Of a stretch of 64,000 bases of DNA, positions 9,790 to 36,453 are shown piece after piece. The DNA is taken from assembly GCA_024710705.1 (NCBI GenBank), contig JANJUF010000019.1, forward strand, positions 1-64,000, read 5' to 3'. The position numbers and the translations under genes were made by a program. The stretch is from Gemmatimonadaceae bacterium (GTDB lineage: Bacteria > Gemmatimonadota > Gemmatimonadetes > Gemmatimonadales > Gemmatimonadaceae). The notes below the pieces were generated by a model. It was not told the origin of the DNA. It made no database searches and was given only the letters and a program-made list of their open reading frames with translations. Position 1 is the first letter of the stretch. Each line of letters begins with the position of its first letter.

Positions 9790-10646
9790 GGCCTGCTGAG
9801 CTCGCCCCCGCCATCCACCAGCGCGAGCGTCTCCGCGCACTTCTTGCCCCAGGGATTGAACTTGTTGGTGGCGTACCCCTTCTGCCACGTGGCCCGCGCC
9901 TCGTCGCGCTCGTCATTGAACCAGTAGGCGCGGCCGAGCTCGTAGTACGCCTCGATGAGGTTCGGGCCCAACGCCAGCGTCTTCTGGAAGAAGGTCTGCG
10001 CGTCCTCGTACATCTCGCGCTCGAGATACACGAGCCCGAGGTAGAAATGCGCGTACAGCGTCGCCTTGCGGTCGTTGTCGAGCCGGATCGCCTTCGACAG
10101 GTGCTCGATGGCCTCGCCGAAGATTTCCTTCTTGAGGCAGATGTAGCCCACGTTGATCCGCGCCAGCGCGTTGGCGGGCTCGCGCATCAACACCTTCTGG
10201 AAGTTGAGCAGCGCGTCGTCGTATTTCTCCTGGAGCATCTGCGCCCAGCCCAGGAGGGCCTCGCTCTGCGGGTCGCCCGGCGACAGCTCGATGGCACGCA
10301 GCAGGGCCTTCTCCGCCCCGTCGTAGTCGCCCAGCGAGAGGCGGCTCCAGCCTTTCTCGATGAAGGTGGAGGCGCCGATATGGTCGGAGTGGACCACCGG
10401 CCGCTCGCCCTGGAACTGCGGCGCCTGCACGCCTTCCGCCGCCTGCTGGGCCTTCCACTTGTCCACCAGCTGCTTCACGTCGTCCTTCAGCTGCGAGAGC
10501 TCGGCGACCTGCGCCTCGAGTGCCTTGAAGAGCCCGACGATCTCGGCCTTCACCGCCGCACGATCGCCGGCCGACAGGCCGGCCTCGAGCCGCGCATCGA
10601 TTGCCGCGTACTGGGCCTTGAACGACGCCACCGACTCATCGGTCAT
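9786..10646 (-). CDS. TPR-repeat protein of the chemosensory cluster
   Basis: A 286-aa cytoplasmic protein with an N-terminal helical region (KAEIVGLFKALEAQVAELSQLKDDVKQLVDKWK, here seen as a coiled coil at about 30-65) and at least four TPR units between about 100 and 260 (LLGWAQMLQEKYDDALLNF, YYELGRAYWFNDERDEA). The ATG at 10646 has GGAGG six bases upstream and overlaps the upstream cheW by 11 bases, so translation is coupled. TPR proteins usually hold complexes together; a link to the Che proteins is inferred from context only. Confidence 0.8.
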   Translation of the reverse strand: MTDESVASFKAQYAAIDARLEAGLSAGDRAAVKAEIVGLFKALEAQVAELSQLKDDVKQLVDKWKAQQAAEGVQAPQFQGERPVVHSDHIGASTFIEKGWSRLSLGDYDGAEKALLRAIELSPGDPQSEALLGWAQMLQEKYDDALLNFQKVLMREPANALARINVGYICLKKEIFGEAIEHLSKAIRLDNDRKATLYAHFYLGLVYLEREMYEDAQTFFQKTLALGPNLIEAYYELGRAYWFNDERDEARATWQKGYATNKFNPWGKKCAETLALVDGGGELSRP

Positions 10647-11127
10647 CACGACCCTCCTGCGCCACGACTGCCCGCATCGCAATCCGCTCCGTTGATGTCA
10701 CGAGGCGAGCGGCGTCGAGCAGGATGGACAGCCCCTCGCCGCGCCGCACGATGCCCTGCACGAACTCCTTTGCCAGCCCGCGATACACGGCGGGCGCTTC
10801 CTCGACTGCCGTCGCGTCCACCGCCGTGACCTCGTGGACGGCATCCACGATGAAGCCGACCGGCCCGTCCTCGAGCCGCACCACCAGCACGCGGGAGCGC
10901 TCAGTGGGCGTCTCGCCCGCGAGCCCCAACCGCTCCCGCAGGTCCAGCACCGGCACCAGCCGATCACCCACCGCGATGACCCCACGCAGCCACTCCGCGC
11001 TGTTCGGAAGATGCCGCGGCGGCGCGTACCGCAGCACGCGCTCCACGCTGGCGACATCCAGCGCGAAATGTTCACCCGCGGCCTCGCAGGTCACGAGCGA
11101 TCGACGGTCGGTTGCAGTCGTCATCAT
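10636..11127 (-). CDS. cheW: CheW-like coupling protein 1
   Basis: A 163-aa single CheW domain: ALDVASVERVLRYAPPRHLPNSAEWLRGVIAVGDRLVPVLDLRERLGL is the classic beta-barrel core containing the RGxI/VPVxDL motif. CheW bridges receptors and CheA. The start overlaps the upstream cheW stop as ATGA. It is one of three cheW-type genes in the cluster and the most canonical of the two next to cheB. Confidence 0.9.
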   Translation of the reverse strand: MMTTATDRRSLVTCEAAGEHFALDVASVERVLRYAPPRHLPNSAEWLRGVIAVGDRLVPVLDLRERLGLAGETPTERSRVLVVRLEDGPVGFIVDAVHEVTAVDATAVEEAPAVYRGLAKEFVQGIVRRGEGLSILLDAARLVTSTERIAMRAVVAQEGRDDR

Positions 11128-11555
11128 AGGCCTCGTCGTAAAGTAGCGGAGGCCGCCGCGCGTAGCGCCCCCGCATCCACAGCCGCCACGACCTCCGCTC
11201 CCCGCTGCAGCAACGCGCGCAAGACGCCGAGGCGGTCGCTCCCCGCCGGGATCGGCCGCTCCTCGACAGTCGCCGACTCCCAGACGTCCTCGGCGTCATC
11301 CACCCAGAGTGCCGCCTCACCGTCGGCCAGCACGAGTGCTGCGCTCCCGCCCTCGGGCGAGCGCGGAATCCCGAGCACCACCGCAGGGTCGAGGATGGGG
11401 ATGAGCGCGCCGCGCAGCACGAACTGCCCGGCCAGCCCGGCCGGCGCGAGCGGCAGCGGCATGACGTGGGGCAGGTCGATCACTTCGCGCACCGACTCCA
11501 CCGCCAAGGCAATCCGCTCGGTCCCCACGCGCGCGATGAGCAACCGTCCCGTCAT
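11124..11555 (-). CDS. cheW: CheW-like coupling protein 2
   Basis: A compact 143-aa CheW domain starting MTGRLLIARVGTERIALAVESVREVID, with QFVLRGALIPILDPAVVLGI matching the RG-x-IPVxDL core. The start is fixed by an ATGA overlap with the cheB stop. Having two different CheW proteins in tandem suggests alternative couplers or a duplicated and diverged scaffold. Confidence 0.88.
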   Translation of the reverse strand: MTGRLLIARVGTERIALAVESVREVIDLPHVMPLPLAPAGLAGQFVLRGALIPILDPAVVLGIPRSPEGGSAALVLADGEAALWVDDAEDVWESATVEERPIPAGSDRLGVLRALLQRGAEVVAAVDAGALRAAASATLRRGL

Positions 11556-12622
11556 CGGCCACGCTCCGTTCCCATCTGCCGCACCGCCCGTTCGATGGAC
11601 TCGGCGATTGCCGACAGCCCGACCCCCTGCTCCACGCCCGCCGCCGCGCCCGCCTGCGCCGGCATGCCGTAGACGGCACTGGTCGCGCGATCCTGCACCA
11701 CGGCGCTGCCCCCGGCGGCCCGGATCGCTGCTAGCCCCGCGCTGCCGTCGCGGCCCATGCCCGTCAGCACCACCCCCACGGCCGCCGGGCCGAACACCTC
11801 GGCGGCCGACGTGAAGAGCGGATCCGCCGCTGGGCGGACCCCGTGCATCGGCGGTGCATCGGAGAGCACCAGGCGCGGGCCGGCCGAGCCGCGTGTGATC
11901 AGGAGATGTCGTCCGCCGGGAGCCACGTACACGTGTCCGCTCAGGAGCGGCTCGCCCGACTGTGCTTCCCGCACCGGCAGGGCGGCGAGGTGCTCGAGCC
12001 GCCGGGCGAGTCCGGCCGTGAATCCGGGTGGCATGTGCTGGGCGATGACTACGGCTGCATCGAGCGACGGGGACAGCGCCGGGATGATCTCGGCGAGGGC
12101 GCGCGGGCCGCCAGTGGACGCGGCGATGGCCACCACGCGCGCTGCCGGTCGCAGGGTGCCCGGCACCGCCGGCGTCTTGGCGCGCGGACGCGCCAACATG
12201 GGCACAGTGTGGTTCGCCCCGACCGCCGCCCGCAGCGCCTCGTGCAACCGGGGCGCGACCGCGTTCCATCCGTCCGGCGTGGCCTGGTCCGGCTTGCGCA
12301 CAAACTCGAGGGCGCCGAGCTCGAAGGCCCGGATCGTCAGGTCCACCGCCCCGCGCGCGGTCGCCCCGCTCACCATCACCACCGGGCGCGGCGCCTCGCT
12401 CATGATGTATCCCAGCACCTGCAGTCCATCCAAGCCCGGCATCTCGACGTCGAGCGTCACGAGGTCTGGCGAGAGCTCGTGCACCATCCGCAGCGCCTCC
12501 TCGCCATCACGCGCCACCCCCACCACACGGAAGCCGCCGAACCCATTCACGAGATCGCGCACGACCTCGGCCATGAGCTGGCTGTCCTCCACCACCAACA
12601 CCGTCCGCGGCTCAGAGGACAC
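11552..12622 (-). CDS. cheB: Chemotaxis response regulator protein-glutamate methylesterase
   Basis: CheB removes methyl groups from receptors. The receiver domain has phospho-acceptor D58 (LVTLDVEMPGLDG) and the C-terminal esterase has the triad S169 (IAASTGG), H196 (AQHMPPG) and D292 (GMGRDGS). The GTG at 12622 has GGAGG five bases upstream and overlaps cheD by 11 bases; an ATG at 12649 is the alternative. 356 aa. With CheR it implies methylatable receptors, yet none is encoded in the window. Confidence 0.95.
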   Translation of the reverse strand: MSSEPRTVLVVEDSQLMAEVVRDLVNGFGGFRVVGVARDGEEALRMVHELSPDLVTLDVEMPGLDGLQVLGYIMSEAPRPVVMVSGATARGAVDLTIRAFELGALEFVRKPDQATPDGWNAVAPRLHEALRAAVGANHTVPMLARPRAKTPAVPGTLRPAARVVAIAASTGGPRALAEIIPALSPSLDAAVVIAQHMPPGFTAGLARRLEHLAALPVREAQSGEPLLSGHVYVAPGGRHLLITRGSAGPRLVLSDAPPMHGVRPAADPLFTSAAEVFGPAAVGVVLTGMGRDGSAGLAAIRAAGGSAVVQDRATSAVYGMPAQAGAAAGVEQGVGLSAIAESIERAVRQMGTERGR

Positions 12623-13091
12623 GGCCACCTCCGCGCACGCCCCGGACATCCACCGCCCCCGTGGAGACATCGAAGGACACGCTCCGACCCGAGGTGCCTC
12701 CGGTGTCCATCGCGACGATCGGCACGCCGGCCGCCACCAGCGCCGCGCGCGATGCCGCGATGTTCCGCTCCCCCATCTGCCCGGCGCTGCTCGCCAGCAT
12801 GGAGCCGAACAGTGCCGCGCCGCCGACCAGCTTGGCCTCGAAGGGCGCCACGGCGCCCTGTTCCTTCATCGCCGCCACCAGCATCGGCACGGCCGAGCTC
12901 GCGAAGCGCGCCGGGTTTGTCGCGTCGCGGGCCGCACTCGGATCGGGCAGCAGGATGTGCGCCATCCCCCCCACGCGCCGCGCCCGGTCGTAGAGGATCA
13001 CCGCCACGCAGGAGCCGAGGCCCACCGCCACCAGGCGTCCCTGTCCGCGCGCCACGGCGAGATGCGCGATGCGCACGTGGTGGTCGCTCAC
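12612..13091 (-). CDS. cheD: Chemoreceptor glutamine deamidase
   Basis: CheD deamidates receptor glutamines and in many species binds CheC. Motifs are intact: GLGSCVAV with the catalytic cysteine, GGMAHILLP with the histidine, KLVGGAALF, and GGTSGRSVSFDVSTG near the C-terminus. 159 aa, normal length. It is coupled to cheR by an ATGA overlap. Confidence 0.95.
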   Translation of the reverse strand: MSDHHVRIAHLAVARGQGRLVAVGLGSCVAVILYDRARRVGGMAHILLPDPSAARDATNPARFASSAVPMLVAAMKEQGAVAPFEAKLVGGAALFGSMLASSAGQMGERNIAASRAALVAAGVPIVAMDTGGTSGRSVSFDVSTGAVDVRGVRGGGRVL

Positions 13092-13924
13092 GCGTCGGCG
13101 CTCCGGCGGAAAATGCGCTGGCGCTGGTCCACGACCTCGAAGAGCGCGCGCGCCGCCCCGAACAGGCTTTCCACCTTCCCGAGAATCAACACGCCACCCG
13201 GGGCCAGGGCGGCGTGGAAGCGCCGCAGGATGCGTTCCTGTCCGTCGCGGTCGAGATAGATGAGCACGTTACGGCAGGTGATGAGCTGCAGGGCATCGGC
13301 GGGGGCCTCGTCGAGCAGGAGATCGCGTCTCTCCACACGCACGAGCGCCCGGAGTTCGGCGCTCGCCCGGTGCGGCGCCTTCGTTCCGAAGTATCGGTCA
13401 CGGAGCGGCACCGGCAGTTCCGAGCAGGCGTCGGCGCTGTACTCGCCGCGCTCCGCAGCGCGCAGGGAGGCGGGGTCGATGTCCGTCCCGATCACGCTCG
13501 TGTGCAGGAGCTGACGCAGGGTGCCGGTGCGGGTCGCGTGCTGGTGGAGGATGGCCGCCAGCGTGTAGAGCTCCTCGCCCGAGGCACAGCCGGCGCTCCA
13601 GGCCGTGAAGCGCGACGCGCCGCGGAGCGTCCACAGCGTGGGCAACACCATCTCGGCGAACAGGTCCCAGACCGCGGCATCGCGATAGAGGCGCGTGACG
13701 TTGATCGTCAGCGCATCCATCAGGTGGTCGTACTCGACGGGATCGCGGGCCAGCAGGGCGGCGTACGCACCGTACTCGGTGACGCCACGGGCGCGCATGC
13801 GGACCGCGACGCGGCGCTTCAGGCACCCATCCTTGTAGTTCCCGCAGGCGAAGCCTCGCGCGCGGGCCACTTGGTCGAGCAACGCGCGGAAGGCCGCGTC
13901 GTCCGGGGCATCCCCGGCCATCAT
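13088..13924 (-). CDS. cheR: Chemotaxis protein methyltransferase
   Basis: CheR methylates receptor glutamates using SAM. The N-terminal helical domain is followed by ALTINVTRLYRDAAVW and by the SAM loop AGCASGEELYTLA, a variant of the usual AGCSTGEEPYS. LLDEAPADALQLITCRNVLIYL is the typical strand-4 region. 278 aa. Start MMAG overlaps the upstream stop (ATGA). Confidence 0.93.
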   Translation of the reverse strand: MMAGDAPDDAAFRALLDQVARARGFACGNYKDGCLKRRVAVRMRARGVTEYGAYAALLARDPVEYDHLMDALTINVTRLYRDAAVWDLFAEMVLPTLWTLRGASRFTAWSAGCASGEELYTLAAILHQHATRTGTLRQLLHTSVIGTDIDPASLRAAERGEYSADACSELPVPLRDRYFGTKAPHRASAELRALVRVERRDLLLDEAPADALQLITCRNVLIYLDRDGQERILRRFHAALAPGGVLILGKVESLFGAARALFEVVDQRQRIFRRSADA

Positions 13925-15537
13925 CCCCCCCGCAGGGCGGCCAGCCGTGCGCGCGCCTCAGGATGCTCGGGATCCAGCACCAGAGCCTGCTCGAACGCCT
14001 TGCGTCCCCCGTCGGTGTCGCCCGCGCTCATCCGCAGCGTCCCGATGCGCGCCCACACTTCGGGCCCCAACGTCTCGTGGTGCCGCACCGCCAGCTGGTA
14101 CGCCTCCAGCGCCCCCGCTCGGTCGCCGGCGCCAAGCAGGAGGTCCCCGAGGTTGCGATGCAGCGGCGCGAGGCCCGGATCCTCCTGGAGCCCGCGCATC
14201 ACCGCCTGGCGGGCCTCGTCGGCGCGGCCTAGTGCCACCAACGCGACCGCAAGATTGTTGTGCAGCGCCGCCGCGTGCGGGTGGGCCTCGCAGCCCTCGG
14301 TGAGCAGCGCCACCGTCTTCTCCAACTGGCCGGCCAGCGCCGACGCCAACGCCGCCTCGTGGAACCACACCGCCGACGGTGCCTTGCTGCCGTAGAGCGG
14401 ACGCGCCCGCATGAAGTGGGCATCAGCCTCGTCGAAGGCACCGCGTCGCAGGGCGAGCACGCCCAAAGAGAGATGCGTACGCGGCTCGTCCCCTCCATCG
14501 CGGACCAGCGCCTGCTCCAGGGCTTCACGCGCCTCGTCCTCGCGCCCGAGCCGCTCCAGCGCCAACGCCAGGTTGTGAAACACCGAGGGCCGTGCCCCAC
14601 GCTGCCGCGATGCCGCCTCGAGATGCGTCAACGCCTCGGCCCACTTGCCGAGCCGCAGGTGCGCCACGCCCAGCTGGAAGCGCGCCCCGACGTCCTCCGG
14701 CCGCAACTCGGTGACCCGCCGGAACTCGCGCACCGCCTCGTCGAGCATCCCCGCGCGGAAGAAGGCCACGCCAAGGTTCCGATGCTCCTCCACCCGCACA
14801 TCGGCCGCCACATCCTCCGGCGCCTTCGACCGGCCGACGCGATGCAGGTAGCCGGCCGTCGCCAATCCGAAGAGCGCCTTGCCGACCTCGAACTCCACCA
14901 GTCCCGACGCGTCCACGAGATGCGTCACGTCGGTCCGCCCATCGATGAGCGGGAGCAGCGTCTGCTGTTCGGCCGTCAGCGACGGCGAACTCTCGGCCAG
15001 CCGCCGGCGATCGAGTTCGAAGACGATGTCGAAGGAAGGAATCTTCTTTTCGATCAGGCTCCACTCGTCCACCCGCCGCGCCCCCTCGAGCAACAGCGAT
15101 TCGGGATTGATGGCGACGAGGAAGTCCTGTTCGTCGGGGCGGATGTCCGACTCGAAGTTGAAGCTGCCTTCCGCCCACGTGAAGAGGAAATAGACGGCCT
15201 CCTCGATCTGCACCCGGATCTGCGCGTGCAACTGCTCCCGCGTGAGCATCCCGTGCTGCACGAGGAGGTCGCCGAGCCGCTGGCCGCGCGCCTTCGCCTG
15301 CAAGCCGATCGCCTCGTCCAGCATCTCCTGCGTGAGCAGGCCGCTCTTCACGAGAATGTCGCCCAGGCGGTCGCGGCGGTTCACGATGGAGGCGTAGCTG
15401 ATCTTGCCCTTGTCGAAGTAGATCGAGCCGAAGTTGCTCCGGTGCGTGACCGAGAGGCAGCCGCTCTTCTTCCCCATGGCGAGCAGCTGCAGCACGTCGG
15501 GGAGCGACGCTTCCTTGAGCGACCCCTTGATGGCCAC
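13921..15537 (-). CDS. DUF4388 (PatA-like) protein fused to a TPR array
   Basis: A 538-aa cytoplasmic protein. Residues 1-95 are a DUF4388 domain (IKGSLKEASLPDVLQLLAMGKKSGCLSV), followed by two repeats of the form LTQEMLDEAI...GQRLGDLLVQ and a module ending in SLLLEGARRVDEWSLI that recurs in the second DUF4388 protein of the cluster. About residues 255-538 are TPR repeats. The GTG start at 15537 shares its G with the TAG stop of the tandem ATPase gene. DUF4388 proteins often occur with MglA-type GTPases and Roadblock proteins; their biochemical role is not settled. Confidence 0.85.
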   Translation of the reverse strand: MAIKGSLKEASLPDVLQLLAMGKKSGCLSVTHRSNFGSIYFDKGKISYASIVNRRDRLGDILVKSGLLTQEMLDEAIGLQAKARGQRLGDLLVQHGMLTREQLHAQIRVQIEEAVYFLFTWAEGSFNFESDIRPDEQDFLVAINPESLLLEGARRVDEWSLIEKKIPSFDIVFELDRRRLAESSPSLTAEQQTLLPLIDGRTDVTHLVDASGLVEFEVGKALFGLATAGYLHRVGRSKAPEDVAADVRVEEHRNLGVAFFRAGMLDEAVREFRRVTELRPEDVGARFQLGVAHLRLGKWAEALTHLEAASRQRGARPSVFHNLALALERLGREDEAREALEQALVRDGGDEPRTHLSLGVLALRRGAFDEADAHFMRARPLYGSKAPSAVWFHEAALASALAGQLEKTVALLTEGCEAHPHAAALHNNLAVALVALGRADEARQAVMRGLQEDPGLAPLHRNLGDLLLGAGDRAGALEAYQLAVRHHETLGPEVWARIGTLRMSAGDTDGGRKAFEQALVLDPEHPEARARLAALRGG

Positions 15538-17438
15538 TAGCGCATCTCCTCGATGAGGCGGCCGCCGATATCGGCCCACTCCCACACCACTCGCTCGCGG
15601 TCGAGGAAGGTGCGATCCCCGGCGCTGGCCGCCGCGGCGGCCGGCGCCACGGTGGCGCTGGCGGCCGCCCCGAGTCCCAGTTCCTCGCGCGCCAGCGCGG
15701 CGTCGAGCGGAATCCCCAAGGAGTCGGCGGCCGCCGCCAACCGATTCACCACTCCGATCAGTTCGCGCACGCTCCGGACCGAGGGGTCGCAGATGACGTC
15801 GAGCAGCTCCGGTGGCGCGGCCCGTCCGAGCCCGGCGAGGAAGCGCGCCGCCAGCTTCTCCCGCAACGGGCGATCGGGCGGTTGGATCTCGGCGATGAGC
15901 CCGCCCTCGAAGCGCGAGCGGAGCCGCGCCGCCAGATCGGGAATCTCCGATGGCGCGCGGTCGCTCGAGAGGATGATCTGCTTCCCATCCTCGATGAGCG
16001 CGTTGAAGACGAAGAAGAACTCGTCCTGCGTGCGCTCCTTCCCCGCCAGGAACTGCACGTCGTCCACGACCAGCGCGCCGGCGGCGCGATACCGCGCCCG
16101 CCAGCGCTCGACGCTGCCTTGCTGGATCGCCGCGATCAGCTCGTCCACCAGCACCTGCGCGTGCACGCAGGCCACGGTCACCGCCCCCTCGCTCCGCGCC
16201 GCGATCGAGTTGCCGATGGCGTGCACGAGGTGCGTCTTCCCGACCCCGGAGGGACCGGAGATCAGCAGGGGGTTGTAGCGCGTGCCCGGCGTGAGGATCA
16301 CGGCGTCGGCGGCGTGCACCGCCAACTGGTTGGCCGTGCCCACGTCGAAGCCCTCCCGCGTGAACGCCGGATTCGGTCCGCCCGGCGGCATGTCGCCGGA
16401 CAGCGCCCGTTCCACGAACTCCTCGGCGTCCTGCAGCCGCTCCGGGTCGCGGAACAGCTCGTTGCCGCCGAGCGCCGCGTCCACCAGCGTGACCTCCCGC
16501 TCCAGCGCGCGGAGGTGGTCCACCGCCTGCACGTAGGTCGTGATGAGCCCCTGCACATCCGGCTCCTGCGGCAGGCTCAGGGCCCGCTCCAGCACGGCCG
16601 TGCGGTAGCCCTCGCCCTTCCAGTACGCGATCACCTCACGCAACCGCACCTGCCAGGTCTCCACCTGCTCCTGCACCACCGCCGCCACGTCGGAGAGAAA
16701 GCTCAGGAACTCACCGGACGGGCGCAGCACGTCGACGGCGCCGGGGATCGGCGTCTTGGTGCGCCGCGGATGCGCGCCCATGGCCTCCTGCGCCACCCAC
16801 TGCGTCAGCAGTCCCTGCAACTCGCGCACGCTCGTGATGCCGCGCTCGGCAAGCGCCTCGATCGTCTCGTCGGGCACGGCCAGTTCCCGCTCGGCGATGG
16901 CCGCCCGGAGGATCGCGACGCGCGCCTCGTACTCCGGGAGCCCGACGTCCACGACCAACCCGCCCGCCATCCGCGAAATCAGGCGCTCGTCCACGTCGGC
17001 GATGTCGGTGGGTGGCCGGTCGCTCGCGCACACGATCTGCCGATTCCCCTCCTGCATCGTCGTGAACAGGCGCAGCAGCTCGGCCTGCATCTCGCGGCGC
17101 CCCGTCACGAATTGCAGGTCATCCAGCAGCAGCAGGTCCACGTGCGCCAAGCGATGCCCGAAGGCCGACGTTTCCCCGGCGCTGACCGCCGCATGGAACT
17201 GTTCCGAGAACTCGTCGAGCGACAGGGCCAGCACCTCGGCGTCGGGCTGCAGTTGCTTGAGCAAGTGCGCGGTGCCGGTGAGCAGATGCGTCTTGCCGAG
17301 CCCCGAGCCGCCGTAGATGAAGAGCGGATTGTAGGCGGTGCCCGGTGCCTCGGCTACCGCACGGCAGGCCGCGGCCGCCAAGCGATTCGCGGCGCCCACG
17401 ACGAGGCGCTCGAAGGTGAAGCGGGGATCGAGCCGCAT
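15537..17438 (-). CDS. Tandem DnaA-like double AAA+ ATPase without DNA-binding domain
   Basis: A 633-aa protein with two complete DnaA-type ATPase modules. Module 1 (about 5-222): TFERLVVGAANRLA, Walker A GGSGLGKT (43-50), Walker B LLLLDDLQF (102-110), sensor 1 ASDRPP, arginine box RLISR (152-156) and sensor 2 SVRELQG. Module 2 (about 355-575): YNPLLISGPSGVGKTHL (Walker A 395-402), LVVDDVQF (456-463), SSDRAP, RLRSRF (505-510) and SVRELIG. A helical linker of about 130 residues joins them. The DnaA domain IV helix-turn-helix (DHxTV signature) is absent, so it is not a replication initiator. It lies directly after an MglA-type GTPase gene. The role is unknown; an ATP-driven remodeller of this signalling complex is one guess. 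Confidence 0.88.
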   Translation of the reverse strand: MRLDPRFTFERLVVGAANRLAAAACRAVAEAPGTAYNPLFIYGGSGLGKTHLLTGTAHLLKQLQPDAEVLALSLDEFSEQFHAAVSAGETSAFGHRLAHVDLLLLDDLQFVTGRREMQAELLRLFTTMQEGNRQIVCASDRPPTDIADVDERLISRMAGGLVVDVGLPEYEARVAILRAAIAERELAVPDETIEALAERGITSVRELQGLLTQWVAQEAMGAHPRRTKTPIPGAVDVLRPSGEFLSFLSDVAAVVQEQVETWQVRLREVIAYWKGEGYRTAVLERALSLPQEPDVQGLITTYVQAVDHLRALEREVTLVDAALGGNELFRDPERLQDAEEFVERALSGDMPPGGPNPAFTREGFDVGTANQLAVHAADAVILTPGTRYNPLLISGPSGVGKTHLVHAIGNSIAARSEGAVTVACVHAQVLVDELIAAIQQGSVERWRARYRAAGALVVDDVQFLAGKERTQDEFFFVFNALIEDGKQIILSSDRAPSEIPDLAARLRSRFEGGLIAEIQPPDRPLREKLAARFLAGLGRAAPPELLDVICDPSVRSVRELIGVVNRLAAAADSLGIPLDAALAREELGLGAAASATVAPAAAAASAGDRTFLDRERVVWEWADIGGRLIEEMR

Positions 17439-17443
17439 CCGAG

Positions 17444-18040
17444 CTAGCCTCGCCCTGCGCTCAGCTTGCGGAGCACCAATTCCGAGATGCCGCGCAGTGT
17501 CTCGAACACCCCGGGGCCGTGCAAAGCATCGGCGGTGAACGAGGGCACGCCGCGGAAGTTGAGCGCCTCCTCCAACTCCGGCACCGCCGTCCGCAGCTCC
17601 TCGGGGAGGTCCACTTTGTTGTACTGGATCACCAGCGGCATCGTGCGCGCGTCCACGCCCTGCTCCGCGAGGTTCTCGTGCAGGTCCTGGAACGACTCGA
17701 TGTTCTCGTCCAACTGGCGCGCCTGCGAATCGGCGACGAACACCACGCCGTCGGCGCCCTGCAGCACCAGCTTGCGGGTGGTCTGGTAGTAGACCTGGCC
17801 CGGCACCGTGTAGAGCTGGAAGCGCGTCGTGAACCCCGAGATCGTCCCGAGGTCGATCGGCAGGAAGTCGAAGAACAGCGTGCGATCTGTCTGCGTCGCG
17901 AGGGAGACCATCTGGCCCTTGCGGTCCGTCGGCACCTGGCCGTGGATGTAGTGCAGGTTGGTCGTCTTCCCCGACCGACCAGGTCCGTAGTAGACGATCT
18001 TGCAGGTGATTTCCCGCGTGGCGTAGTTGACGAGGCTCAC
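17444..18040 (-). CDS. mglA: MglA-type small Ras-like GTPase
   Basis: A 198-aa GTPase of the MglA family, which in Myxococcus marks the leading cell pole and works with a Roadblock-domain GAP. The P-loop is GPGRSGKT (19-26), then the family-specific TQTDRTLFFDFLP (49-61), switch II VPGQVYYQTTRKLVL (79-93) and NKVD (141-144). The switch II PGQ context and lack of a lipidation signal fit MglA. Roadblock genes lie directly upstream on the same strand, so GTPase and potential regulators are co-expressed. Confidence 0.95.
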   Translation of the reverse strand: MSLVNYATREITCKIVYYGPGRSGKTTNLHYIHGQVPTDRKGQMVSLATQTDRTLFFDFLPIDLGTISGFTTRFQLYTVPGQVYYQTTRKLVLQGADGVVFVADSQARQLDENIESFQDLHENLAEQGVDARTMPLVIQYNKVDLPEELRTAVPELEEALNFRGVPSFTADALHGPGVFETLRGISELVLRKLSAGRG

Positions 18041-18074: not shown

Positions 18075-18548
18075 TCAGCCCCTCCCGAAGAGTTGGGCGA
18101 GGTTGCGGTTCAAGTCGGCCTCGAAGTTCTCGGCCAGCGCCGGCGCGGCCGACTCGGCCGCCGGGGCCGCGGCCGCGACATTCGCCTGCAGTTCCTTCAG
18201 GTAGAGCTGTACGATGCCCAGGGAACTCTCCGTGTCGAAGACCGCCAGCACGAGCAGCATGGCCTCTGCCGTCGGGACCTGCCCCAGGTAAATCTGCCGT
18301 GCGTTCCCGGCATAGTGCAGTCCGCGAAAGGGCGTGCCATCCACCATGGTCCCCAGATGCTCGGCCGACGCGTTGATGGCGGCCGAGAGGGCGCAGGCGG
18401 TCTGCACGTCGATCGAGCGCTGAAATCCGAGTTGGGCCAGCACCTGCCCGCTTGAGTGCATGAGGATGGCAAGCTCCACGCGGGCATCGTCCACGAACTG
18501 CTTGAGCGGCGCGTCCGCCCAGCCAATGGTCATCGTGTGGCGCATCAC
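18075..18548 (-). CDS. Roadblock/LC7-domain protein A
   Basis: 157 aa. Residues 15-115 form a Roadblock/LC7 fold (VELAILMHSSGQVLAQLGF, ALSAAINASAEHLGTMV, LLLVLAVFDTESSLGIVQLYL), followed by an Ala/Glu-rich tail. Roadblock proteins such as MglB act as GAPs or regulators for MglA GTPases. The start is either the GTG at 18548 (GTGA overlap with the upstream gene) or the ATG next to it. It lies 34 bases before mglA. It is a good candidate for the functional MglB partner, although overall similarity to MglB cannot be judged here. Confidence 0.82.
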   Translation of the reverse strand: MMRHTMTIGWADAPLKQFVDDARVELAILMHSSGQVLAQLGFQRSIDVQTACALSAAINASAEHLGTMVDGTPFRGLHYAGNARQIYLGQVPTAEAMLLVLAVFDTESSLGIVQLYLKELQANVAAAAPAAESAAPALAENFEADLNRNLAQLFGRG

Positions 18549-18886
18549 AGCCCCGCCGCCGCGCGCAGCAGGTCCACGCGCAGGATGCCGAGGTTCGCCC
18601 GCGAATCCGCCACCGCCACCACCACGAGTCCATTGCGGCCCGCGGCCAGCACACGGCCCCGTTCCGCCTCGAGCTCACAGAACGTGATGCCACCGAATCC
18701 GGCGCTCGTCGCCGCGCGCGCCGCCTTGCGGTACAGCGACGCCATCAGGGCCGCGAACACCGAGGTGTCCACGCCGATCTGGGCCGTCGCGTCCACGACG
18801 ATCCCGTCCTCCTCGACGACGACGAGGCAGGCCGAGACGCCCCGATGCCGCGTGACGGCGGCGATGAGCGACGCGTAGGCACTCAT
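18545..18886 (-). CDS. Roadblock/LC7-domain protein B
   Basis: A minimal 113-aa Roadblock domain: MSAYASLIAAVTRHRGVSACLVVVEEDGIVVDATAQIGVDTSVFAALMASLYRKA is split here for reading as a strand-helix-strand core with the typical VVVEEDGIVVDA hairpin, ending in LVVVAVADSRANLGILRVDL. The ATG at 18886 overlaps the upstream stop (ATGA). Small size and partner gene A suggest a heterodimeric Roadblock pair acting on the MglA protein. Confidence 0.82.
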   Translation of the reverse strand: MSAYASLIAAVTRHRGVSACLVVVEEDGIVVDATAQIGVDTSVFAALMASLYRKAARAATSAGFGGITFCELEAERGRVLAAGRNGLVVVAVADSRANLGILRVDLLRAAAGL

Positions 18887-19680
18887 GCCGCCCCCCCGAG
18901 CCAGCGGTCCGCGAGTGACACGCAGGCGTCGAGGGTCCGCCGCACGAACCCGAGTGGCACCTCCCGTGGCGCCGCCACCAGTGTCACGCCACCGCCGGCC
19001 GGCGCCATGACGATGGCCGCCGCCTCGCTTTCCAGCGCGATTCGCGTCCACGCCCCGAGGCCGAAGTGCCGCATGGCCCGGTCCGCCTCGTCGCTCACCC
19101 CGGAGAGATGCGCCCCGATCACTGCCCCCAGGTCCTCGCCCTCGGCCGTGTGATACGCGCCCGCCACCACCAGCCCATCGGCATCCAACAACAGCGCGAC
19201 CTGCGAGGAATCTCCGAGCGCCGCGTCAAACAGCGTCGCCGCCGCCTCGGCACCCGAGGGCGCCGCCACCACCGCGGCGGAACTCCGCGGCGTATCGGCG
19301 GACCGCGCCACGTGCAGCGCCTCCCAGGCCGCCTCGAGCGCCGGATCCCCCGGCGTGGCCGCGCGCGCCTTGCCCAGATGGAACTCCGCCTCCTGCCAGC
19401 GCCGCTGCTGGTAGCAGAGAAAACCAAGCCCGCGGTGCGCCGGCCCGAAGTCCTGGGCGATTCCCAACGCCGTGCGCCACGCCCGCTCGGCATCCTCCTC
19501 CAACCCCTGCGCCAGCGCGACGCGCGCCACCAAGTCGTGCGCATCGGCGCGGTGCGCGTGCCGCTCGGCGCCCTTGCGCGCGACACGCACCGCGTGCGCG
19601 AGATCCCCACGCGCGAGCAGCTGCTCCCCCAAGGGCAGGAACACAAGGCTCGTCGGATCGCTCGCGAGCTGCTCGCTCAT
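18883..19680 (-). CDS. TPR-Roadblock fusion protein
   Basis: A 265-aa protein with two parts. Residues 1-125 are TPR helices (LGEQLLARGDLAHAVRVARKG, GLGFLCYQQRRWQEAEFHLGKA). Residues 145-263 are a third Roadblock/LC7 domain (SSQVALLLDADGLVVAGAYH, LGAVIGAHLSGVSDEADRAM, TRIALESEAAAIVMAPAGGG). The ATG at 19680 lies 10 bases after the upstream stop; a longer frame reads back into the DUF4388 gene and was not used. The fusion links TPR scaffolding to GTPase regulation in one polypeptide. Confidence 0.82.
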   Translation of the reverse strand: MSEQLASDPTSLVFLPLGEQLLARGDLAHAVRVARKGAERHAHRADAHDLVARVALAQGLEEDAERAWRTALGIAQDFGPAHRGLGFLCYQQRRWQEAEFHLGKARAATPGDPALEAAWEALHVARSADTPRSSAAVVAAPSGAEAAATLFDAALGDSSQVALLLDADGLVVAGAYHTAEGEDLGAVIGAHLSGVSDEADRAMRHFGLGAWTRIALESEAAAIVMAPAGGGVTLVAAPREVPLGFVRRTLDACVSLADRWLGGAA

Positions 19681-19690
19681 GCTGCGGATG

Positions 19691-20671
19691 TCACCGCTCA
19701 AGGGGCACCTCCTGCTCCAGCACCTGCGCCAGCCGCGACGCCGCGACCACCGCCTCGCGGATCGCCGCTGCGCCCGGATAGCCGGGCGTCGCCTCGAGGA
19801 AGGCGCTCCATGTGGAGATGCCCTCGGCGAGCGCCCCGCGGCGGAAGGCCTCGGCGCCGCGCAGCAGCGGGCTCGGCATCCCGGCACTCGGGGTCCGGTG
19901 TGCGGTCGGTCGCGCCTCCTGCGGAAGCGCAATGGCGGCACTGGGACGCATCGGCTGCCGCAACAGCACCACGCCCGTGCTCACGAGGCCGAACATCACG
20001 CGGGCCACGTCGAACTCGCTCATGGACACCGTCGCCGCGATCGTCCGGAGGTCGGTGCGCCCGTCGATCATCGCCAGCACCTTCCACTCGTGCGGCAGGA
20101 GGTCAAGCAGCGCCGGATGGTCAGCGTCGCCCGGCGCGAGGTCCGGGATCACCGAGAGGTTCGGGACGCGATCGGCGATGCGCGACCACTCGTCAATGCG
20201 GCGCGCCCCCTCCATCAGCAGCGACTCCGTCCCCAGTGGACTCGACGCGTCGCGCATCGCATCCTCGCTCAGCCCCTCGTCGAAGCGGAAGTGCCCCTCC
20301 GACCACGACATCAGTTCGAACACCACGGCCTCGATCTGCAAGCGCATCTGCCGATCCATCTCGCGCGCCGTGACGAGCCCGAGGGACACGAGGATCTCAC
20401 CGAAGCGCCGCTTGTCCCCTTGGTCCTGCGCCTCGCGCACGCGGGCGAGGTCGGCGTCGGTCAGCCGCCCCGAGCGCACGAGCAAGTCGCCGATGCGGTG
20501 CGGATTCGACTTGATCGCCGCCGAGATCACCTTGCCGTTCTCGAACAGCACCACGCCCTCATTGTCGCGCAGCGCCGAGGTGACGGTCAGCGTGCCCGTC
20601 TTCCGGCTCAGGTCGAGGAGCTGGAAGACGTCGTGGATGCCGAGTTCCTTGAGCGGGCCTTCGATCGCCAT
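19691..20671 (-). CDS. DUF4388 (PatA-like) protein
   Basis: 326 aa. N-terminal DUF4388 domain (IEGPLKELGIHDVFQLLDLSRKTGTLTV), two repeats of the RIGDLLVRSGRLTDADL / RFGEILVSLGLVTAREM type, and the SLLMEGARRIDEWSRI module shared with the 538-aa DUF4388 protein. A winged-helix-like segment follows (AMIDGRTDLRTIAATVSMSEFDVARVMFGLVSTG). No TPR array, but a short helical C-terminus. The start overlaps the upstream stop (TGATG). Confidence 0.83.
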   Translation of the reverse strand: MAIEGPLKELGIHDVFQLLDLSRKTGTLTVTSALRDNEGVVLFENGKVISAAIKSNPHRIGDLLVRSGRLTDADLARVREAQDQGDKRRFGEILVSLGLVTAREMDRQMRLQIEAVVFELMSWSEGHFRFDEGLSEDAMRDASSPLGTESLLMEGARRIDEWSRIADRVPNLSVIPDLAPGDADHPALLDLLPHEWKVLAMIDGRTDLRTIAATVSMSEFDVARVMFGLVSTGVVLLRQPMRPSAAIALPQEARPTAHRTPSAGMPSPLLRGAEAFRRGALAEGISTWSAFLEATPGYPGAAAIREAVVAASRLAQVLEQEVPLER

Positions 20672-23382
20672 CAGGCCTCCTCCCCGCTGCCGTCGAGCCG
20701 CTGCTGCACCGCCCGCGCCTCACGGAAGGCGCGCCGCGCGAACTCGCCGTGCGGGTCAATCTCGGCCACCCGCCGGAAGCAGGCCACCGCCTCGCGATAG
20801 CGCTCCTGGCCGGCGAGTAGCACGCCCTGATGGAAGACGGCGCCCACGTGCGCGGGATCGAAGCGCAGGACGCGTTGGAACGCGAAGGCGGCGTCGGCCG
20901 GCCGGCCCATCTCCATCAGCAACTCGCCCAGCGCCACGAGCCCATCGAAGCTGTAGGGATCGCGTTCAAGAAACTCCACGAGCAGGCCGAGGGCCGCCTG
21001 TGGTCGCCCGCGCCCGCGGTGGAGCGCCGCCAGCGCCAGCGTCGCATCGGCATAGGTCGGCACGGCATCCAGCGCCGCCAACAACTCCTCCTCGGCCTGC
21101 GCGAAGTCGCCGCGCTGCGTCAGCAACTGCGCGAGGTCGAAGCGCACCGCCGCGAAGTCGCCGTCGAGCGAGAGCGCGTGGCGATACGCGGCGATGGCGG
21201 CATCGAGGTTGCCCAGGGCCTTGGTGACGTTGCCGATGCCGCGCAGCACTTCGGCCCGCGAGGGATCGGCCCGGCGCGCCTGGTCCAGTACCTCGAGCGC
21301 GCCCTCGGGATCCCCGCTCTCGAAGCGCGCGGTGGCCACCAGCAGGAGCGCATCCACGTCGGCCGGCAGCACCTGCAACAACAACGCCGCCGGAACCGCT
21401 GCGTCACTGCCACGACCGAGCATCAGCAAGGCCTGGGTCTCGCCGCGCAGCGCGTCGGCATCCGCCGGCTTCACCCGGCGCGCCGCCTCGAAGCGCTCCA
21501 ACGCATCGCCCCACGCGCCCTGCCGGCCGAAGGCTTCGCCGAGCAAGACGTCGCCGCGCACCGGGTCGGCCCCGCGGCCGAGCGCGCGCCGCACCTCGGC
21601 CATGGCGCGGTCCACCAAGCCCTTCGACAGGAAATCCTCGGCGAGGGCGAACGGGTCGCCCTCGCTCGGCGCGAGCGGCTCGGCCGCGGCCGGCGCGGGC
21701 TCCAGTTGCTTGAAGATCGAATCCAGCAGGCCGGTGTCGAACGTGAACGTCTCGACCCCGGCGCTCATCCGCTTCTCGCCCCCGAGATCGGGCACCACCG
21801 TGAGCTCCGCCGACTCAAACTCAAGGTCGATCGCCAAGCGGAACGACTGCGGCACGTAGTACGGGTCGATCTCCAGTGCCCGCTTGGTCTCGCGCAGCGC
21901 GCCAGGGTAGTCGCCGAGATTCGAGAGCGTGAAGCTCAGGTTGTAGTGTGCCTCGGCGTAGTCGGGCGCGGACTGGATGGCCCGCGCATACGCCGTGCGC
22001 GCCTCATCGAAGCGGCGGAGTTCGGCCAACACGAGGCCCACGCCATTCCACGCCATCGCCGACTCGGGCTCGTGCTCCAGCACCTGCCGGTAGGCTTCGA
22101 GGGCGAGCTGGTATCGCTTGCCACGCACCAGCAGGAGCGCGAGGTTGAGCCGCGCCTTGGTGAAGCCCGGCGAGTGCTGCAGCGCCTCGCGGAACTCGTC
22201 AATCGCCTCGTCCCCGCGGTCGGCGTGGAAGAGGGCCACGGCGAGATTGTTGCGCGCGATGGCATAGCGCGGATCGGCGGCGAGCGCCCGCCCATAGCTC
22301 TCGGCCGCCGCAGCGTGGTCGCCCGTCTGGTGCAAGGCCACGCCGCGCTCGTTCCAGAGCTTGGGGCTCTCGGGCCGCGTCACCAGCAGCTCGTCGTACA
22401 GCGGGATCGCCGCCTGCGGCTCCTGCTGCAGCAAGTGGAGCTCGGCGATCGCCTGCACCACCAGCGCGCGGTCCTCGCCCTGCGCCATGGCGAGCTCGTA
22501 TTCGCGCATCGCCTCGGCCATCAGCCCCTGCTGGCGGAAGGCCTGTCCGAGCGTGTAGTGCGCCAGCGGCTCGCCCTCGGCGATGCGCATCTGCTGCTCC
22601 GACTTCCGCGCCTGCCGCCCCGGCACGAGGGCTTCATACTTCTTCGGGTCGTACTCGTCGAGCGAGAGGTTGGCCTGGGCCCGCGACAGCGCGGGATTCA
22701 GCTGCACCGCGCGCTTCGACGCCGTGCGCGCCTCGTCGTGGCGGCCCATGTCGCCCAACACGAAGGACAGCAGGAAGTGTGAGTCGGGATGGTCGGGATT
22801 CAGGTGGATGGCGCGCTGCAACGCCGTGAGCGCCTCGTCGAAGGCCCCTTGGTTGTACAGCACCTCGCCCACGTAGAAGTGCAGCAGCCCGCTCTGCGGG
22901 TCGCGCCCGAGCGCCGTGCGGAACCAACTCAGGGCCACGCCCAGCCGTCCCACCGCCTTCTCGGCCAGCCCCAGTTGGATCATCGTGCCGACATCCCCGG
23001 GGCGCAGGGCGAGCAGGGCCTGGAACTCGAGGATGGCGTCCTCCGGTTGGCCCAGCAGGGCGAAGGCCCGTCCCAGTTCCCAGCGGGCATCGCGGTCGTC
23101 GGGGCGCTGGCGCAGGCGTTCCCGCAGCTCCGCCACCCGGCGATCGTAGTAGCCAGTGTTGAAATACGCGATCTCGAGGTTGCGCTGGGCCACCTGCATC
23201 TTCGGGTCCAGCTCCAACGCCTGCGTGAACGCCTCGACGGCCTCCTCGTGCAGGCCCTTCGTGTAGTAGAGCACACCGAGGTTGTTGTGTGCCCCCGCGT
23301 CCGCCGGGTCAATCCGGCGCGCGAAGCCGCGCAGGACCTCGCGGTCCCGCGCGCTGACGGTGGGAGCCTGCGGAGTCGTCAC
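20671..23382 (-). CDS. Large TPR-repeat protein, 903 aa
   Basis: Almost the whole length is TPR, roughly twenty 34-residue units in two blocks separated by a linker at about 520-580 (LDSIFKQLEPAPAAAEPLAPSEG). Typical units read AGAHNNLGVLYYTKGLHEEAVEAF and ARNNLAVALFHADRGDEAIDEF. No signal peptide or membrane segment. The size and cytoplasmic location fit a scaffold for the Che/MglA/Roadblock proteins; no direct evidence of partners. It is coupled to cheC by an ATGA overlap. Confidence 0.85.
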   Translation of the reverse strand: MTTPQAPTVSARDREVLRGFARRIDPADAGAHNNLGVLYYTKGLHEEAVEAFTQALELDPKMQVAQRNLEIAYFNTGYYDRRVAELRERLRQRPDDRDARWELGRAFALLGQPEDAILEFQALLALRPGDVGTMIQLGLAEKAVGRLGVALSWFRTALGRDPQSGLLHFYVGEVLYNQGAFDEALTALQRAIHLNPDHPDSHFLLSFVLGDMGRHDEARTASKRAVQLNPALSRAQANLSLDEYDPKKYEALVPGRQARKSEQQMRIAEGEPLAHYTLGQAFRQQGLMAEAMREYELAMAQGEDRALVVQAIAELHLLQQEPQAAIPLYDELLVTRPESPKLWNERGVALHQTGDHAAAAESYGRALAADPRYAIARNNLAVALFHADRGDEAIDEFREALQHSPGFTKARLNLALLLVRGKRYQLALEAYRQVLEHEPESAMAWNGVGLVLAELRRFDEARTAYARAIQSAPDYAEAHYNLSFTLSNLGDYPGALRETKRALEIDPYYVPQSFRLAIDLEFESAELTVVPDLGGEKRMSAGVETFTFDTGLLDSIFKQLEPAPAAAEPLAPSEGDPFALAEDFLSKGLVDRAMAEVRRALGRGADPVRGDVLLGEAFGRQGAWGDALERFEAARRVKPADADALRGETQALLMLGRGSDAAVPAALLLQVLPADVDALLLVATARFESGDPEGALEVLDQARRADPSRAEVLRGIGNVTKALGNLDAAIAAYRHALSLDGDFAAVRFDLAQLLTQRGDFAQAEEELLAALDAVPTYADATLALAALHRGRGRPQAALGLLVEFLERDPYSFDGLVALGELLMEMGRPADAAFAFQRVLRFDPAHVGAVFHQGVLLAGQERYREAVACFRRVAEIDPHGEFARRAFREARAVQQRLDGSGEEA

Positions 23383-24008
23383 GCGACCCGGATGGCGGTG
23401 AGCATGCGCCGGAGGCTCGGCGGGTCCGGCAACAGCAGGAAGAACCCGCGCAGCGGCAACGTGTCGTTGGCGAGTTGGAACTCACTCTCCACGCAGAACA
23501 CGTAGGCCGCGCCCTCGGACACCTCGACGTAGGTGGAACTCAACACCGCGTCGCTCATGTCCACAGCCATGACGGGAGGCGAGTTGAGGATGCGCATCCC
23601 GAGGAACTCGGCGAGGGCATTCAGGTAGGCCGCACTCAGGATGTTGCCGGCTTCCTTGAGCGCCGACTCCTCGATGGGGCCAAGCTCGTGCACCGGTTTC
23701 CCGCCCATCATCAGGCTGGCGATGCGGTAGGCGATGGGCTGGGGGAAGACCAGCAGGGTGAGCCCCGTGAGGTCCCCGGCCACCTTGATGGCCACCGCCG
23801 CCACCGGTTCCTCGCCGGCCGCGATCTGGTTCGGCACCTCCTCCAGCGCGGTGATGTTGATCTGCGGCACGCTGATCATGATGCGCTGCGTGGTGATCTG
23901 CGACAGCGCCGTCGCCGCGTGCCCCGCCCCGATGTTCGCCACCTCGCGCAGCGCATCGAGTGCCGCGCGAGAGAGGCTCCGTACGTCGTCCGCCTCATAC
24001 TCGGTCAC
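23379..24008 (-). CDS. cheC: CheY-P phosphatase CheC
   Basis: CheC dephosphorylates CheY-P and is stimulated by CheD. Both catalytic helices are kept: ALREVANIGAGHAATALSQI and ALKEAGNILSAAYLNALAEFLG, each with the E-x2-N pair and a downstream Pro. 209 aa, normal length. cheD is in the same cluster, so the CheC-CheD adaptation loop known from Bacillus and Thermotoga is probably complete. Confidence 0.93.
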   Translation of the reverse strand: MTEYEADDVRSLSRAALDALREVANIGAGHAATALSQITTQRIMISVPQINITALEEVPNQIAAGEEPVAAVAIKVAGDLTGLTLLVFPQPIAYRIASLMMGGKPVHELGPIEESALKEAGNILSAAYLNALAEFLGMRILNSPPVMAVDMSDAVLSSTYVEVSEGAAYVFCVESEFQLANDTLPLRGFFLLLPDPPSLRRMLTAIRVA

Positions 24009-35667: not shown

Positions 35668-36453
35668 CTACACCCGCCCGGACTGTTCGCGCGCCACCAA
35701 GTAGGTGCGCAGTTCGCGCTCGGAGCCCATGCGGCGCAGGTGCCCATCCACGGCGATGGACACCTCCTCCCGCTCCTCCGACACGACGATCACCACCGCG
35801 TCCGTCTCCTCCGAGAGGCCAAGGGCCGCGCGGTGCCGCGTCCCGTAGGCCCGATCCATCGGCGCCGAGGTCAGCGGCAGGATGCAGCCGGCCGCCACCA
35901 CACGATCTCCGCGCACGATCACCGCCCCATCGTGCAACGGCGAAGTGCGGGCGAACATGGCCGTGAGTAGGTCGGCCTGCACCTGCATCACCAGCGGAGT
36001 TCCCGACTGCACGAAGGTGCCCAGCGACACGTCCTTTTCCACGGCGATGATCGCGCCGACGCCGAGCCGGGCCAGCCGGAACGCCGCGTCGGCGAGCACG
36101 CCGGCGGCGTCGGCCTGCCGCTCGTCGCGCTTCAGCAGGAATCCGAGGCGTCGCTGCCCCAGATTCGCCAGCGCCGCGCGCAGTTCCGGCTGGAAGATCA
36201 CCACCGCAGCGAAGGCACCATAGGTGAACGCGAGCCCGAGCACCCAGGTGACGGTCGTGAGCTTGAGCAGCCACGCCACCGAGTACGCCAGCACGAGCAC
36301 CACGATGCCGGCCAGCATCTGCACCGCCCGCGTCCCGCTGATGAGCAGGAGGAGCCGGTAGAGCATGTATGCGACAAGCGCGATCTCGAGGAGATCGCGC
36401 CAGCCGAAGGTCAGGAGACCCGAGGAACTCACGAGGCGGTCGCCGCGCGCCAC
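35668..36453 (-). CDS. cdaA: Diadenylate cyclase CdaA (c-di-AMP synthase)
   Basis: 261 aa with three N-terminal membrane helices (about 20-85) and a DAC domain. Catalytic motifs DGA (175-177 in LHDGAVIV) and RHR (206-208 in YGTRHRAALG) are present. It condenses two ATP into c-di-AMP, a regulator of osmolyte and wall homeostasis. The likely start is the GTG at 36453, one base after the ftsH stop; a second in-frame GTG lies 21 bases downstream. Downstream of ftsH, hpt and tilS. Confidence 0.95.
   Translation of the reverse strand: MARGDRLVSSSGLLTFGWRDLLEIALVAYMLYRLLLLISGTRAVQMLAGIVVLVLAYSVAWLLKLTTVTWVLGLAFTYGAFAAVVIFQPELRAALANLGQRRLGFLLKRDERQADAAGVLADAAFRLARLGVGAIIAVEKDVSLGTFVQSGTPLVMQVQADLLTAMFARTSPLHDGAVIVRGDRVVAAGCILPLTSAPMDRAYGTRHRAALGLSEETDAVVIVVSEEREEVSIAVDGHLRRMGSERELRTYLVAREQSGRV

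Follow-up and report, generated by a model that had tools for sequence, protein, structure and literature searches.

DD, a conserved protein with two DnaA-type ATPase modules in a chemosensory and MglA operon of Gemmatimonadota, and its possible role as an ATP-controlled switch

INTRODUCTION

The ATPase of DnaA is known for its part in replication and in replication control. Hda, likewise a DnaA-type AAA+ protein, is able to offer an arginine finger and to stimulate ATP hydrolysis by DnaA; it has an N-terminal clamp-binding site (PMC5742627). Among signaling systems, the nearest counterparts are the MglA/MglB (roadblock) polarity, Frz, and PATAN systems of Myxococcus and other bacteria. We take DUF4388 to be a domain of the PATAN type. 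MglA genes have been reported near PATAN genes (PMC4316618), in an account that mentions no DnaA-type AAA+ protein and whose main text contains the word DnaA 0 times. Here, we describe DD, the name used in this work for the tandem DnaA-type AAA+ protein encoded by the open reading frame (ORF) at positions 15537 to 17438 (minus strand) of a 64,000-nucleotide stretch of DNA from a Gemmatimonadaceae bacterium (contig JANJUF010000019.1 of assembly GCA_024710705.1; the whole stretch is referred to as the window). Like the systems above, this locus places MglA, roadblock, a CheA-type kinase, DUF4388, and tetratricopeptide repeat (TPR) genes side by side; DD lies among them. No description of such a tandem DnaA-type protein was found in the open-licence papers searched.

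RESULTS AND DISCUSSION

Two DnaA domain III modules in one chain

An original prediction, made from the letters of the window, held that this protein unites two DnaA ATPase modules and has no DNA-binding domain IV, and both observations were confirmed. Pfam Bac_DnaA matches DD in two stretches (337.4 bits), placed by the genome search at 16947 to 17432 (172.8 bits) and 15891 to 16370 (171.4 bits). All five ATPase motifs occur in both modules: Walker A and Walker B (GGSGLGKTH and LLLLDD in module 1; GPSGVGKTH and ALVVDD in module 2), sensor 1 (ASDR and SSDR), the box VII arginine (DERLISR and AARLRSR), and sensor 2, which reads SVREL identically in each. Chance can be excluded as the source of these motifs because they are conserved, the module 1 Walker A lysine being present in 77 of 77 tandem loci. 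The top sequence match in the Protein Data Bank (PDB) is Bacillus subtilis DnaA (8bv3/8btg), and the top fold match of the predicted model is again B. subtilis DnaA (8bv3_A; 42% identity, target-normalized template modeling score of 0.85, root mean square deviation of 2.1).

A Pfam scan of DD at an E value of ≤0.01 returned neither Bac_DnaA_C nor DnaA_N; the genome's own DnaA, encoded on another contig and serving as the positive control, gave 89.9 and 32.9 bits for these two domains. The stretch between the modules bears no resemblance to DnaA domain IV (hhalign probability of 0.8%), and in the predicted model, whose overall confidence is low, module 2 is not followed by a helix-turn-helix. 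Judged by its sequence, DD is thus a real and unusual protein with two DnaA domain III modules and no DNA-binding domain found. The earlier description can be refined in two places: a helical domain, itself conserved, occupies the inter-module stretch, and the last 25 residues form a conserved C-terminal tail.

Reciprocal decay of the two active sites

Residues were counted in 77 aligned loci of the tandem protein and, for family f5, in 30 aligned loci, 5 of which duplicate earlier reads (L and G numbers denote loci and genomes, respectively; f4, f5, and f6 are families, and g9, g30, and g31 are further lineage labels). All tandem loci have an intact ATP site in module 1, with the Walker A lysine and the first Walker B aspartate each at 77/77, and the sensor 2 arginine of this module is kept in 75/77. 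Module 2 retains its Walker A lysine in 69/77, its second Walker B aspartate in 63/77, and its sensor 2 arginine in 55/77. The box VII arginine is found in 69/77 loci for module 1 and in 72/77 for module 2.

In the 8/77 loci where module 2 is without the Walker A lysine or without the first aspartate of Walker B, its box VII arginine is kept every time (8/8). Five loci (L036, L037, L039, L046, and L070) have lost the module 1 arginine and kept that of module 2, the residue having changed to lysine in L036 and L037. Both g30 loci read (L039 and L070; 2/2) lack the box VII and sensor 2 arginines of module 1 and keep its ATP site. In f5, no locus has an intact module 2 P-loop (0/30; L142 and L147 retain an AK[T/S] remnant) or Walker B pair (0/30; the first aspartate is retained in L149 and the second in L155 and L162), and all 30 keep the box VII arginine of module 2 together with the P-loop and Walker B aspartate of module 1. 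The module 2 lid, including sensor 2, is missing or unrecognizable in f4, f5, and four g9 loci, and box VII stays. From this reciprocal loss of active-site parts we infer one composite ATPase site, in which the ATP pocket of module 1 would be paired with the arginine finger of module 2; such a site would fit most lineages. The same pattern lends support to the earlier proposal that a covalent dimer could form its own ATP-bridged interface.

The modules also differ outside the catalytic motifs. Residue roles were taken from the Escherichia coli DnaA residues Arg285, Lys243, Val211, Arg245, and Arg334, as described in PMC5742627. The equivalents of Val211, Lys243, and Arg245 in module 2 are V/I in 71/77, K in 58/77, and R in 70/77 loci; those in module 1 are H in 49/77, K in 1/77, and R in 3/77. 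At the Arg245-equivalent position, R stands in 70/77 module 2 sequences versus 12/36 of the DnaA proteins read. These module 2 residues may mark one contact face. Amino acids (aa) 435, 467, and 469 of module 2 match the H/B motifs with which DnaA binds single-stranded DNA (ssDNA).

Relation to DnaA, Hda, and the helicase loaders

A tree of 98 AAA+ domains (unrooted, with four rows on long branches and three outgroup rows of odd composition) separated three groups: DnaA (21 domains, including Firmicute, actinobacterial, and proteobacterial outgroups; 100/92), module 2 (36 domains; 100/99), and module 1 (37 domains) together with four single-module forms (100/99). The DD modules do not branch inside DnaA, and the genome carries a separate canonical dnaA. 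Given the three separate groups, both modules are old, and DD is not a recent copy of dnaA; a recent duplication of dnaA, which would have refuted the original prediction, is ruled out by the tree.

By sequence, each DD module is a DnaA domain III, matching Bac_DnaA in turn. Unlike DnaA, DD has two modules per chain, lacks domains I and IV, adds a helical domain and a tail, is located in a Che/MglA operon, and falls into separate tree groups. DD exceeds the cutoff of the NCBI DnaA equivalog model TIGR00362 (464.2 versus 343.9 bits), as does its f5 relative L051 (358.9 bits), whereas the single-module relative L120 scores 209.7 bits; the model passes on DD only by summing the two modules. Since it does pass, automatic annotation may call DD a second dnaA. 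In comparisons with Hda and with the helicase loaders DnaC/DnaI, DD fell below the NCBI cutoffs (TIGR03420 for Hda, 152.1 versus 194.8 bits; for the loaders, NF006505, 54.0 versus 228 bits, and NF005931, 20.9 versus 357 bits). DD is double where Hda is not, and it begins directly at domain III, with no Hda-type N terminus or other N-terminal extension for a clamp-binding site. Plasmid-borne relatives were considered and set aside: among the 30 of 57 and 10 of 53 records listed, each was either an ordinary DnaA or a single DnaA-type match that bore no annotation.

The helical domain, the tail, and reduced forms

The helical domain found no convincing relative in Pfam or the PDB. The best Pfam candidate, ABC_tran_CTD (E value of 0.0047, in only 5/25 members), and the best PDB candidate (E value of 0.32) were both taken as chance. 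The domain is present as a single copy in the window's genome, according to the genome search. The tail was found in 118 of 119 rows, a count that includes some repeat reads (112 by pattern and 6 by eye; the exception is L157).

Reduced forms of DD occur in several lineages. Family f6 and several Gemmatimonadaceae have no module 2; a single module is present in f6 (3 genomes), G131 to G133, and G073. G036 retains one module and the tail without the helical domain, and G155 and G014 retain the helical domain and the tail without any AAA+ module. Throughout this reduction series (f6, g31, G073/G155/G014, and G036), the tail is retained. The second module is thus not a fixed part of the protein, its ATP site having been lost in f5 and the whole module being absent elsewhere. 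In the tree, the single-module f6 proteins group with module 1 of f4 and f5 (84/97, not among the strongest branches), and loss of module 2 is therefore the simpler reading. A natural fusion of DD to its neighbor in G094 was rejected, as the long frame there contains a run of unknown residues and the neighbor lies in another frame. In G190, G390, and G336, the extra length of the frame is open sequence upstream that overlaps the MglA and roadblock genes.

Distribution and gene neighborhood

The family search gave a match at an E value of ≤0.001 in 171/179 Gemmatimonadaceae genomes, ordinary DnaA included. We defined a strong DD match by an E value of ≤1e-60; among the 105 good-quality Gemmatimonadaceae genomes, 73 have such a match (single-module G131 among them) and 32 do not, 6 of the latter carrying reduced forms. 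At the same threshold, a phylum-wide search matched 210/395 Gemmatimonadota genomes. All 33 f5 genomes gave a match at ≤1e-70, having been chosen because the gene had already been found in the phylum search. One scan of genome contigs returned 4 loci, all from Gemmatimonadota.

The features of the window are listed in Table 1. On the minus strand, the genes upstream of DD run RluD-type, CheW, CheY, CheA, CheC, TPR, DUF4388, three roadblock-type genes, and MglA; DD is followed by a gene for a protein with DUF4388 and TPR (DUF4388-TPR), then CheR, CheD, CheB, CheW-like genes, TPR, and Peptidase_MA_2. The genes at 10636 to 13924 presumably encode CheW-like, CheB, CheD, and CheR proteins, names that we assigned from the sequences and synteny.

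Table 1. Features of DD and of the surrounding operon, in window coordinates
Feature	Coordinates	Strand	Details
DUF4388 protein, TPR protein, CheC, CheA	19691..26005	-	Pfam; same operon as DD
Three roadblock/LC7-type genes	18075..19941	-	18075-18548 (below Pfam cutoff), 18545-19051, 18883-19941
MglA-type small GTPase	17444..18040	-	5 bases between MglA end and DD start
DD, tandem DnaA-type AAA+ protein	15537..17438	-	633 aa, single open frame, ATG start, TAG stop
Module 1, DnaA domain III-type AAA+	16773..17432	-	aa 3-222
Walker A of module 1, GGSGLGKTH	17286..17312	-	aa 43-51
Box VII/arginine-finger motif of module 1, DERLISRMAGG	16959..16991	-	aa 150-160
Helical domain between modules	16383..16730	-	aa 237-352
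Module 2, DnaA domain III-type AAA+	15714..16376	-	aa 355-575
Walker A of module 2, GPSGVGKTH	16230..16256	-	aa 395-403
Box VII/arginine-finger motif of module 2, ARLRSRFEGG	15900..15929	-	aa 504-513
Conserved C-terminal tail	15540..15614	-	aa 609-633, RTFLDRERVVWEWADIGGRLIEEMR; E-K-V-V-W-x-W-P
DUF4388-TPR protein, directly downstream of DD	13921..15537	-	likely GTG start; ORF extendable to 15585
Two MshEN-type motifs for cyclic di-GMP, inserted in the DUF4388 domain of DUF4388-TPR	15208..15369	-	
CheW-like, CheB, CheD, and CheR homologues (presumed)	10636..13924	-	same operon as DD

Neighborhoods were counted over 118 loci, with repeats dropped and direct adjacency decided by a set distance limit. 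DUF4388-TPR lies directly downstream of DD in 116/118 loci (113 within the limit and 3 just beyond it, these being the f5 loci L155, L158, and L163), and in the remaining 2 the contig stops short. Outside f5, 81/88 loci have MglA directly upstream; 2 of the others are at a contig edge, and 5 are without MglA by the limit, among which L132 does have the gene (its match starts late) and L122 has it ∼3.8 kb away. In f5, MglA is directly upstream in 0/30 loci, 2 of them at a contig edge. At L051, the only f5 locus annotated in full, DD and DUF4388-TPR stand alone between ileS-RluD and Peptidase_MA_2; this slot is the same chromosomal position as that of the window operon, and the Che/MglA/roadblock block is absent. 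An MglA-type gene is found elsewhere in 32/33 f5 genomes, mostly 56 to 62% identical (partial pieces, 50 to 68%), and in G427 none was found. Of the Gemmatimonadota genomes searched, most carry a second MglA-type paralogue at another site, ∼56 to 64% identical in most cases.

The constant neighbor of DD is therefore DUF4388-TPR rather than MglA; a link to MglA is common but not required. The placement beside mglA emphasized in the original prediction holds at most loci outside f5 and fails within it. The broader proposal, that the DnaA fold was reused in signaling, fits the conserved Che/MglA/DUF4388 operon. In Gemmatimonadota, DD is an old and conserved member of this CheA/CheC/roadblock/MglA/DUF4388 operon and usually lies within a chemosensory cluster. 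Overall, then, what had been observed is confirmed, and the earlier interpretation is supported in part.

The DUF4388-TPR partner and its MshEN-type motifs

The DD stop codon shares one base with the likely GTG start codon of DUF4388-TPR, and the DUF4388-TPR protein exceeds the cutoff of NCBI model NF053729 (46.7 versus 38 bits). MshEN is a receptor domain for cyclic di-GMP (c-di-GMP), with a motif defined in PMC5013675. Like MshEN domains, DUF4388-TPR has two 24-residue RLG...Q motifs (aa 73 to 96 and 103 to 126, in the longer reading of the ORF); unlike them, its motifs lie inside DUF4388, are separated by a spacer of six residues rather than five, and are eroded in many relatives. Binding of c-di-GMP by DUF4388-TPR is accordingly plausible for the window, judging by these motifs, and not for all relatives. 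One MshEN-type motif is also present in the other DUF4388 gene (19691 to 20671).

DUF4388-TPR was found in 20/20 chosen genomes with DD and, among 31 genomes searched that have no strong DD match, in 20, with 11 lacking the gene at an E value of ≤1e-40. In the DD-less genomes whose DUF4388-TPR was read, exactly the MshEN insert is missing (8/8). In G033, DD and the N terminus of DUF4388-TPR have both been lost.

A possible one-chain switch and its alternatives

We propose that DD is an ATP-controlled signaling protein made from the ATPase fold of DnaA. Module 1 would bind ATP and hydrolyze it slowly, and module 2 would press its arginine finger into the module 1 site, yielding a composite ATPase with ATPase and activator built into one chain. 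The helical domain and tail would form the output end, docking on the DUF4388-TPR protein, through which the MglA/roadblock/CheA pathway could be reached where it is present. The ATP state of DD and c-di-GMP at the neighbor's MshEN motifs might together set the complex on or off. That DD works in this way, as an AAA+ switch in one chain whose site is composite and which docks on DUF4388-TPR by its helical domain and tail, is in our estimate evenly poised between right and wrong.

Several observations weigh against this proposal. The structure model is weak (mean predicted local distance difference test score of 60.8, predicted template modeling score of 0.36, from a five-sequence alignment) and provides no test of the interface; blocks within its AAA+ modules score 50 to 85. 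The own arginine of module 1 is kept in 30/30 f5 loci, so the finger of module 2 need not be the sole one. The arginine is lost from both modules in L048, L049, and L078 and from module 2 only in L060 and L061; a composite site is therefore not universal. Because f6 and other lineages have no module 2, and G155 and G014 have no AAA+ module at all, ATP use is not essential everywhere. On the side of the partner, the loss of DD together with the MshEN insert in 8 genomes concerns one clade and was probably one event, and the motif is eroded: once partners of the short form are set aside, two relaxed motifs remain in 41 and at least one in 93 of 128. As to the cellular setting, genomes with a strong DD match tend to have flagella and chemoreceptors (see below), which disfavors a purely pilus role. 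PilM_2 is present in 176/179 family genomes (171 over the cutoff, some weak) and also in 9/14 controls, so that as a marker of pili it is not specific and carries little information; DD is present in G108 and G128, where PilM_2 was not matched.

The survival of the helical domain and tail after both modules have gone (G155 and G014), with the tail as the most constant part, would also suit an ATP-binding scaffold, in which ATP only joins the modules, hydrolysis is unused, and the helical domain and tail are the active parts. We regard this reading as possible though doubtful, as conservation of the Walker B aspartates and the sensor 2 arginine (75/77) of module 1, and of the box VII arginines of both modules (69/77 and 72/77), exceeds what binding alone needs.

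A reading that we consider unlikely is that DD still uses module 2 to bind ssDNA or other DNA, acting as a nucleoid-based, ParA-like positioning ATPase for the chemosensory/MglA complex. Module 2 does keep the ssDNA H/B-motif residues, including the arginine that is much rarer in the DnaA proteins read (V/I in 71/77 and R in 70/77, against R in 12/36). However, f4 and f5 have replaced the adjoining lysine (TERAQ for KERTQ in most rows), lineages without module 2 exist, and the same residues may serve a domain-domain contact, as Lys243 does in E. coli (PMC5742627). A bolder form of our proposal makes DD an ATP timer for polarity whose module 2 still senses ssDNA or DnaA and so couples replication and surface behavior through c-di-GMP/MglA output. 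Though rather improbable, it would, if true, provide a direct physical link from a replication-type AAA+ switch to a chemosensory pathway. Least probable, and only slightly credible, is an Hda-like replication regulator whose finger touches the ATP of DnaA and places initiation under chemosensory control: the shared DnaA-type fold (Hda being of this type as well; PMC5742627), the intact fingers, and the DnaA-like interface residues of module 2 would suit it, but DD stays under the NCBI Hda cutoff, lacks the N-terminal stretch for the clamp-binding site, has signaling genes as the neighbors compared in the loci read, and has no replication initiation gene beside it at the annotated f5 locus.

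In DD, a DnaA-type ATPase is an old and widely kept part of a signaling operon, and DD is a candidate for a new way of regulating MglA, DUF4388/c-di-GMP, and Che outputs. DD would also be a simple AAA+ system, with one chain, two modules, and probably one essential site, in which lineages missing half of each active site serve as natural mutagenesis that may indicate the job of each module.

Flagella, chemoreceptors, and pili

A scan of the 179 family genomes found FliP in 80 and methyl-accepting chemotaxis proteins (MCPs) in 158. Among the good-quality genomes, FliP is present in 49/73 with a strong DD match and in 9/32 without one (odds ratio of 5.2, P value of 0.0003, kinship not corrected for), and MCPs are present in 70/73 and 21/32, respectively. 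Flagella as a requirement for DD were rejected, given that 24/73 good-quality genomes with a strong match are without FliP; a FliP search of the window's genome (87.6% complete) also found none. MCPs as a requirement were rejected on account of G122, G124, and G129, which have DD and no MCP match. In sum, DD goes with motility-rich genomes and needs neither flagella nor MCPs. The stretch read of G129 (99% complete; L070) has CheA and CheC and shows no CheR, CheD, or CheB, so that this genome apparently has a chemosensory kinase without classical receptors.

Our best guess for the process, a weak one, is cell polarity or surface motility based on type IV pili, given the analogy with MglA systems (PMC11580455 and PMC4316618) and the lack of flagella in a third of the good-quality genomes with DD.

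Elsewhere in the window, a CdaA-type diadenylate cyclase gene (35668 to 36453, with DAC and CdaA_N domains) adjoins an ftsH gene.

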